Shown here: positions 12,856 to 59,161 of the stretch, piece by piece
Layout: every line of letters starts with the position of its first letter
How positions within the stretch are numbered: position 1 is the stretch's first letter
NCBI RefSeq assembly: GCF_004916975.1
Contig: NZ_STGQ01000003.1
Span: forward strand, 1-64,000
Length of the DNA stretch: 64,000 bases
Direction: 5' to 3'
Source of the DNA: Paenibacillus dokdonensis
GTDB lineage: Bacteria > Bacillota > Bacilli > Paenibacillales > Paenibacillaceae
Notes under the pieces: generated by a model
The model's input: the letters and a program-made list of their open reading frames with translations, nothing else
What the model was told of the DNA's origin: nothing
Databases searched by the model: none
Program-made: the position numbers and the translations under genes

Positions 12856-12960
12856 TGCACCTCCTCATGTCTCAGACTCGCCTGATCCAGGTGGCTGCCC
12901 TAAAGCTGCACTTTTCAACCCGACCGGAGCGGTTACAGCATGTGACAAGCATAAATACCG
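12856..12960 (-). ncRNA. Probable L21 leader (ribosomal protein autoregulatory RNA)
   Basis: The roughly 120-nt 5' leader of rplU contains CCGCTCCGG, GTTGAAAAGTGCA and GGGCAGCCACCTGGAT, which resemble the conserved core of the Firmicute L21 leader family as I remember it. A covariance-model search (Rfam L21_leader) would be decisive. Position and length fit. Confidence 0.55.
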
Positions 12961-33772: not shown

Positions 33773-34090
33773 AAAAAAGCCCCTCGTCCTCAAAGGACGA
33801 AAGGCTGTTCTTTCGCGGTACCACCTTTGTTTCGCGTATGCCTAATGCAAATACATCTCACCTTAGACATGGCAGACTGCTCTCAAGCAAATGCCTTCAA
33901 GTACGCGACACTTCATGCAGATAACGGCTGCAGCCGGTCTGCTCTAACCCGAGAAATCGGCTCAAACAGACAACTCCCGGGCGACTTCGGTTGAATGCAT
34001 CCTGCGGAATCTCACAGCGCAGCAAAGCAATTCCACTCTCTGAAGGGCATATCATCCTACTCTTCCCGATCATCGTTCTTGACAAAATAT
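33773..34090 (-). ncRNA. Valine T-box leader of valS
   Basis: The minus strand has the T-box sequence AAAGGTGGTACCGCG at 33814-33828. Next come competing structures ending in the terminator AGCCTTTCGTCC...GGACGAGGGGCT with six T's (33773-33806). Upstream is a long stem I with distal AGAG and GAAT-type loops. In the specifier loop the minus strand reads GAAGTCG at about 33981-33987, giving codon GUC (33983-33985), a valine codon. TGGT in the bulge would pair with ACCA of tRNA-Val. Low charged tRNA-Val should favour the antiterminator and valS expression. Confidence 0.95.
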
Positions 34091-58006: not shown

Positions 58007-58218
58007 AAAACTGCATGCATATGTACATGTCTCTTTCGAATATTTAACTAGTATGGGGCGTGAAATCAGATACAGAAAATATTAATGAATTATGAAGCAC
58101 TTGAAACAGTCTTCCAGTATATTTTTAGGCTGTACAACCCGTTATAATTAATAATATTAATTTGTTGTTGTAAAATGTTTATCCGTATGATATGATATTT
58201 CTTGCTTGAATTTTTTAT

Positions 58219-58292
<74 letters not shown>

Positions 58293-58297
58293 TACAT

Positions 58298-58326
58298 AAA
58301 AGCCACTCTTCGGAGGGGCTTTTTGC
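58298..58326 (+). terminator. Terminator after tRNA-Arg
   Basis: AAAGCC-ACTC-TTCG-GAGG-GGCTTTTT: a GC-rich stem closed by a TTCG tetraloop with a T-tract, seven bases after the tRNA. Confidence 0.85.
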
Positions 58327-58639
58327 TTTATGGAGGGATGAGAACCCATCAGGGTTCGTCGGAGCATAAGCTTCGTTAGCATCTGCTTCGCAGTCAGCCC
58401 GAAGGGCTGTATCCCTCTGAGGAGTATTTGTGTGAGCTAAGCGCTCCGCATACGAATCATTCCTCCGATCGCTGTTGCCCCCGAGTTTATTGAATAATCC
58501 AAGTTGGTGTAAACTCGAGGACAACGTTAATGCTTCTGATGCTAGCTTTCCTTCGGAAAGCTTTTAGGCGACTGCTTCGCTTCTTCGGAATTGATTCGTC
58601 CGCTCCGCTACTTTGGAGTAAAACCTAGCATACTAAGTC

Positions 58640-58668
58640 ACTCGGTAGAGAGTGTCTTTTTATTTTCT
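58640..58668 (+). terminator. Terminator-like hairpin ending repeat copy 1
   Basis: CACTC and GAGTG form a short stem around six bases, followed by TCTTTTTATTTT. The same structure ends copy 2. Confidence 0.6.
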
Positions 58669-58973
58669 CGAGGGACTAGCCATTTGGGCACGTCGGAGCA
58701 TAAACATCGTTAGCATCTACTTCGCAGTCAGCCCAAAGCGCTGTATCCCTCTGAGGAGTATTTTTTTGAGCTAAGCGCTCCGCATACGAATCATTCCTCC
58801 GATCGCTGTTGCCACCGAGTTTATTGAATAATCCAAGTTGATGTAAACTCGGGGACATAGGTTATGCTTCCGATGTAGCTTTCCTTCTGGAAAGCTTTTA
58901 GGCGACCACTTCGCTTCTTCCGAATTGATTCGTCCGCTCCGCTGCTTTGGAGTAAAACCTAGTTTACTAAGTC

Positions 58974-59001
58974 ACTCAGTAGAGAGTGTTTTTTTATTTC
59001 C
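58974..59001 (+). terminator. Terminator-like hairpin ending repeat copy 2
   Basis: CACTC and GAGTG pair around a six-base loop that differs by one base from copy 1, followed by a longer T-tract (TTTTTTTATTTC). Confidence 0.6.
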
Positions 59002-59066
59002 TCGGAGGGACGGCGCCCCATCAGGGTTCGTCGGAGCATATGCTTCGTTAGCATCTGCATCCAGAA

Positions 59067-59161
59067 ATGAATCTCTATATCCGGGAGGGCAGTACCGTTC
59101 CAGAAGGAACTGAGGCGCTCTGTTTTTTGTCATAATTTATGTTGTTATGGCTAAATTTAAT
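59067..59161. other. Short spacer between the repeat and the TetR gene
   Basis: No gene seen. It contains GTTCC-AGAA-GGAAC at about 59097-59110 followed by a run of T's at 59123, possibly a terminator serving the TetR gene from the other side or the end of the repeat region. Confidence 0.3.

Follow-up and report, generated by a model that had tools for sequence, protein, structure and literature searches.

The window analysed here covers the opening 64 kb of contig C3 in a genome of 6.48 Mb. It begins within a 16S rRNA gene (1-91), which is ordinary, as are an L21 and a T-box leader found among positions 12864-12944 and 33790-34082. A tRNA-Arg(TCT) gene was placed on the plus strand at 58218-58293 by ARAGORN and matched Rfam RF00005 at 70.6 bits. 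It is followed on the same strand by a terminator-like hairpin with a T run at about 58300-58325, recognised by reading the sequence and absent from the two sites returned by a terminator scan. Directly behind the gene and this hairpin, where an earlier note on this DNA had placed it, lies a tandem plus-strand array. In the first unit, an element termed here element A occupies 58332-58417 (best match to the covariance model R1 described below, 98.6 bits at 58328-58417), and reads in order GGAGGGAT-GAG-AACCC, GGGTTCG, CGGAGCAT...CGCAGTC, a last hairpin and GTATCCCTC. Element B, a hairpin repeat with approximate ends, follows at 58442-58614, and the unit closes with a terminator-like hairpin and T run at 58639-58664 (hairpin 58639-58654). 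The second unit contains a diverged element A at 58669-58751 (R1, 67.7 bits at 58665-58751), element B at 58776-58948 with approximate ends (the unit aligned by BLAST at 91% over 58680-59010), and a closing hairpin with T run at 58973-58998 (hairpin 58973-58988). A truncated third element A is present at 59004-59061, where 58 nt are retained at 88% identity and R1 gives a weak match of 34 bits (58999-59100).

The starts of the two unit copies lie 334 bp apart, and the ungapped identity of the copies over 300 nt is 88% (91% by BLAST). The two copies and third fragment reported in the earlier note are therefore present, with a period of 334 rather than 336 bp and a fragment of 58 nt rather than 60 bp. 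Its description of a terminator-like hairpin at the end of each copy holds for copies 1 and 2 but not for the third fragment (59004-59061), where the same scan gave no such site; moreover, the two sites found in the scan compare with 1.5 expected by chance, a count not above chance. The folding energy of the two copies was matched by none of 100 dinucleotide shuffles in either case (z of -4.4 and -3.5). A protein-coding reading, through a 144-residue minus-strand frame at 58090-58524, was rejected, the frame having no Pfam match.

Matches elsewhere, for which the earlier note had suggested a search, were found: a search with the 334-bp unit gave 28 matches in its own genome, and matches in at least 32 of 40 genomes, the own genome included. 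Away from the window locus the matches fell mainly into two groups, one at query positions 1-79 (element A) and the other spanning all or part of roughly 103-275 (element B), and among the matches listed A and B were joined solely at the window locus. Since the two modules match separately among the matches listed, the unit was rejected as a single element, and the window repeat is a composite of a tRNA-linked element A of about 86 bp, a dispersed element B and a terminator-like tail. Treatment of the repeat as one unit, as in the earlier note, therefore fails: element B contains the AGCTTTCC and CGAGTTT stems, the tRNA-linked signal resides in element A, and the copied tRNA 3' end described below had been overlooked. 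The named stems can be read in both copies, and in copy 2 the CGAGTTT stem has the additional outer C-G pair.

Element B measures about 175 bp, and in the folded copy 1 one of its ends pairs with the other. BLAST matches place it at further sites in the own genome and across many genomes of the genus, and apart from the window instances it was identified in loci L004-L007, L029-L036 and L042; two rows of its alignment (L006, L030) were entered in the wrong orientation. In one genome (G020), a preliminary look gave 146 candidates for the unit as a whole. In the window, a dispersed hairpin repeat of this kind would have inserted into a unit, which would then have been duplicated in its enlarged form.

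The distribution of element A was surveyed with R1, a covariance model made from 21 author-chosen elements of the first loci. Matches were obtained in 45 of the 60 genomes of a set of relatives (own genome included). Among 299 genomes of the class, 25 gave matches, and all but two of the 25 belong to the window's family. A core-pattern search in named genomes gave 105 stretches, and the 80 listed were all from Paenibacillus or Chengkuizengella. From the R1 matches listed, 91 stretches were fetched, omitting matches in loci already collected and a single match by the edge of a contig, and these were combined with nine earlier loci to give 100 alignment sources; loci L037-L041 and L043, in each of which a tRNA-Arg gene precedes the element, were left out. 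R1 gave 169 matches in the 100 stretches, and the best 150 of the 169 were aligned and analysed. A tRNA gene on the same strand was present no more than 449 nt upstream of 147 of these 150 elements, and the other three share a single tRNA-free stretch at the end of a contig. The 147 elements belong to 114 tRNA genes, namely Glu-TTC (40), Asp-GTC (31), Arg-TCT (24), Ser-GCT (10), Ser-GGA (4), Ser-CGA (3) and Ser-TGA (2), and the first copy of each array begins, at the model start, 0-58 nt beyond the tRNA. Two or more copies occur behind 26 of the 114 genes, with a spacing of 109-162 nt in model coordinates and the window, at 337, as the exception.

Several further observations were made at tRNA loci. 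In one genome (G018), the five tRNA-Glu genes, which have ATCCCA in the T-arm (L381, L388, L394, L397, L400), are without an element, and a full element lies behind 17 of the 21 tRNA-Glu genes in the other six genomes compared with it. The ATCCCA letter alone is not decisive for this absence, because 13 elements elsewhere do trail ATCCCA tRNA-Glu genes. In the genome of the window, a tRNA-like remnant missed by ARAGORN lies between tRNA-Ala and tRNA-Glu (L009:1316-1393), with ten N further on. An isolated 44-nt 3' piece of tRNA-Glu at L401 (G014:C1:743498-743541) is possibly the attachment site of an integrated element. In two genomes, a common end sequence, GTGAAGTGCACCCCTTAGAATAGACATTGG, followed by an apparent transposase start, is found at or shortly past the end of the tRNA-trailing array (L018 from about 1611, L043 from about 1845).

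The 3'-terminal 13 nt of element A repeat the upstream tRNA over the 3' strand of its T-stem, its acceptor strand and its discriminator. Across 146 elements (one of the 147 was dropped, its tRNA being cut by a contig end), this tail had a mean identity of 11.70/13 with its own tRNA and was perfect in 102, compared with 6.56/13, and at most 10, when set against tRNAs for different amino acids. At the window locus ATCCCTC alone remains of the tRNA tail, ahead of element B. Within a single anticodon the own variant fitted best for 42 of 45 Glu tails and 30 of 34 Asp tails; for Arg it was best in 21 of 41, with a different variant better in 13, and for Ser-CGA in two of four, with a different one better in two, while each remaining Ser type had a single variant in this comparison. 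In G071, a member of the class where tRNA-Arg has a different T-stem (gggagTTCGAATctctc), the element reads AGTTCG and ATCTCTC, and therefore follows its host tRNA there too. Repetition extends into the tRNA trailer, the 20 nt beyond the tail (11.8/20 vs 6.5 for shuffled sequence, n=145), and the repeating unit is thus tail plus trailer plus core. In Paenibacillus and its relatives, element A is tied to certain tRNA genes and carries a copy of the 3' end of its host tRNA.

The anatomy of the element also recalls the T-arm. The 5' arm, GGGAT-GAG-AACCC, is similar to the reverse complement of a T-arm, with a mean identity of 11.36/17 to the own T-arm, where positions drawn at random from those loci give 4.17; the gain over the T-arms of other hosts (10.77/17) is small, so that the arm is hardly specific for its own. 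A T-arm-like GGGUUCG follows the 5' arm, then comes the inserted domain, which consists of a conserved CGGAGCAU...CWUCG...CWUCGCAGUC and then a variable last hairpin, and GUAUCCC and the acceptor strand stand last. The GGUUCG segment and the final AUCCC with the acceptor strand are copies of the tRNA T-arm and 3' end, split by a variable hairpin insert. In the inner part of the third helix, GGAG has two CWUC segments as possible partners.

Covariation was assessed in 145 distinct sequences, each of at least 80 nt, against an author-made null of 100 alignments simulated on the tree. Proposed pairs were formed in 90-97% of the sequences for P1 and in 74-100% for P2. Two pairs exceeded the simulated null: pair 67-83 (UA 90, AU 31, GC 13, CG 8; 0 expected per simulated alignment) and pair 32-64 (CG 86, UA 51, UG 5; 0.01 expected per simulated alignment). 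None of the other proposed pairs rose above the null in these 145 sequences, many being nearly invariant; column pair 69-81 was top-ranked, yet paired in 41% only, and RNAalifold recovered the last stem alone from the gap-trimmed alignment. Each of the three readings that the earlier note had offered suits a different part of the repeat. A structured RNA fits the 5' module, element A, which is conserved, tied to tRNAs and has two covarying pairs; a bacterial interspersed element fits the middle part, which is a dispersed hairpin repeat; and a recombination by-product at a tRNA accords with the tandem copies, of the kind expected if repeated tRNA tails recombine.

A tree of the core was built without the tail from 79 columns. 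With so few columns, and with 86 of 140 inner branches open, clustering alone is meaningful. Changes of tRNA type on this tree numbered 18, compared with 77.6 when shuffled and 63.9 when labels were permuted inside genomes, and changes of genome numbered 74, compared with 120.6 when shuffled. Core lineages thus track tRNA type more tightly than genome, although genome clusters too. Elements have mostly remained with their own tRNA type, and the lineage pattern counts against frequent moves between types. Orthologous loci of two genomes differ by whole units, with one unit at L362 and a stub at L363, and with a difference of the same sort between L352 and L353.

A known element with which element A can be compared is RtT RNA, described chiefly in the tyrT operon of E. 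coli and its relatives (PMC4986893, PMC2965389). Its release from tRNA transcripts and a tie to the stringent response are described (PMC4986893), and a covarying tandem-GA pair in RtT is reported (PMC7657543). The best explanation of the observations as a whole, with a probability of roughly 0.55, is an RtT-like trailer element that acts as a processed RNA and has its copy number set by recombination. Transcription would run on from the tRNA into the trailer, reading through any terminator between them, the copied T-stem and acceptor end would let tRNA-processing enzymes cut there, and a folded RtT-like trailer RNA would be freed during tRNA maturation. Recombination between the tail of the tRNA and that of the element would alter copy number while sparing the tRNA, and the same exchange would keep the element tail matched to the tRNA. 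That element A has a function at the RNA level is a proposition with chances slightly below even. The main difficulty for a trailer RNA is the terminator-like hairpin ahead of Arg, Ser-GCT and Ser-CGA elements. Among 113 elements no more than 60 nt from the tRNA, a hairpin with TTTT stands between tRNA and first element at 14/24 Arg, 4/10 Ser-GCT and 2/3 Ser-CGA genes, where read-through would therefore be needed, compared with 2/31 Asp, 0/39 Glu, 0/4 Ser-GGA and 0/2 Ser-TGA genes. At the Arg loci concerned, this hairpin argues against routine transcription of the element.

The setting-off of many Arg elements from the tRNA by a terminator-like hairpin would be easier to understand if element A were a selfish or integrative DNA element, with the tRNA T-arm as attachment site, the tail as a restored or duplicated site, and the conserved hairpins serving as single-stranded or cruciform DNA bound by a recombinase. 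Copying of the T-arm and 3' end, and an inserted domain that varies from family to family, are consistent with such an origin, but core lineages track tRNA type rather than hopping between types, and the trailer within the unit is the local one rather than an imported one; this origin is judged possible but rather unlikely. Neutral local duplication, in which a functionless tail-trailer-core unit grows and shrinks by recombination, would account for loci that differ by whole units, for truncated last copies and for the presence of two or more copies at 26 of the 114 tRNA genes. It is nevertheless improbable, as the core is kept across families, pairs covary, and the tie to the same tRNA types is long, though direct repeats should favour loss. 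Least probable is a folding switch in which the second tail copy rivals the first for the 5' acceptor strand, since, although in thermodynamic folding of 84 distinct transcripts (first copies with a perfect 13-nt tail) that strand paired with the distal copy at a mean probability of 0.88 and with its own at 0.02, against 0.98 native pairing for the tRNA by itself, distal pairing was still 0.89 with the sequence between the tails shuffled, so that the core contributes nothing specific to the competition; native pairing was 0.56 with just the distal tail removed and 0.22 with the tail shuffled, so that the energy model is unsteady here, and the tRNA, being transcribed ahead of the element, should also be the first to fold.

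The plan of element A recurs in other families. A pattern of the shared motifs matched in 32 of 398 phylum genomes, and of the 31 pattern stretches inspected, 30 of them from this search, six contain a tRNA, directly upstream every time, placing the motif behind tRNAs in further families; the other 25 are without a tRNA and look like background. Three of the six tRNA-linked stretches are from outside the window's family (L314/G081, L325/G592, L331/G710), and the copied tail is present in L325 and L314, while L331 is truncated ahead of the tail. Elements lie behind Arg-ACG, Arg-TCT, Glu, Ser-CGA, Ser-GCT and Ser-TGA genes in G071, behind Ser-GCT, with a tail, in G710, and behind Ser-TGA, cut at the stretch end, in G753. 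In the order of G710 the pattern occurred in 3 of 25 genomes, and two pattern stretches from that order (L408, L409) contained no tRNA. Four families that do not belong to the window's order contain relatives, and the plan is shared by G071, G081, G592 and G710. Searches of open-licence papers gave none on these Bacillota elements.

A large same-plan set in another phylum, with 114 occupied tRNA genes, provides comparative material on whether trailers are functional RNAs and on which tRNAs need them. The arrays of element A show that repeats adjacent to a tRNA can expand and contract without harm to the tRNA, and an element tail that keeps step with its tRNA is a clean case of concerted evolution. 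More speculatively, RtT-like tRNA-trailing elements could form one old and widespread bacterial class, in Bacillota and enterobacteria, built of an inverted T-arm and a T-arm split by a variable insert, staying matched to the tRNA and kept by selection because a released or competing trailer RNA controls the maturation or supply of certain tRNAs (Glu, Asp, Arg, Ser, Tyr).

Comparison with known systems separates the two modules. Element B resembles REP/BIME and similar hairpin repeats, being likewise dispersed, hairpin-forming and present in several to many copies per genome, whereas element A is not dispersed in that way. Bacillaceae-1 RNA (RF01690) is also found among tRNA genes, but element A gave no RF01690 match in Rfam searches. 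In one genome that also has tRNA-trailing elements, a Bacillaceae-1 RNA (L202:2013-2080, 47.4 bits) lies between tRNA-Met and tRNA-Val. Rfam searches also ruled out a known Rfam family for the repeat. As a positive control, RF00391, the RtT model, recovered three RtT copies behind E. coli tyrV (137.5, 134.2 and 133.8 bits), whereas it gave no match in the own genome (E up to 10) or in the window stretch and related loci searched (E up to 1 or 0.5), and R1 in turn gave no match at the E. coli RtT locus. Element A does not reach the RF00391 gathering score and is therefore called RtT-like rather than a demonstrated member of RtT. The inserted domain differs between the two, as do the hosts, which are tRNA-Tyr in E. 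coli and tRNAs for Glu, Asp, Arg and Ser for element A. Nevertheless, each E. coli copy reads GGGGAAGGAUGAGAAGC...GGUUCG...GAGUAAUCCUUCCCCCACCACCA, on the plan of element A with another tRNA. Both lie directly 3' of a tRNA gene, in tandem units that include the tRNA 3' end, and in both an outer stem is closed by the tRNA tail, GGAUGAGAA is followed by GGUUCG, and GAGUA stands ahead of the tail, features that the alignments and pair counts support for element A. From these likenesses in sequence, element A and RtT are likely to share descent, and element A is very probably a branch, in Paenibacillus and its relatives, of the RtT-like tRNA-trailer elements.
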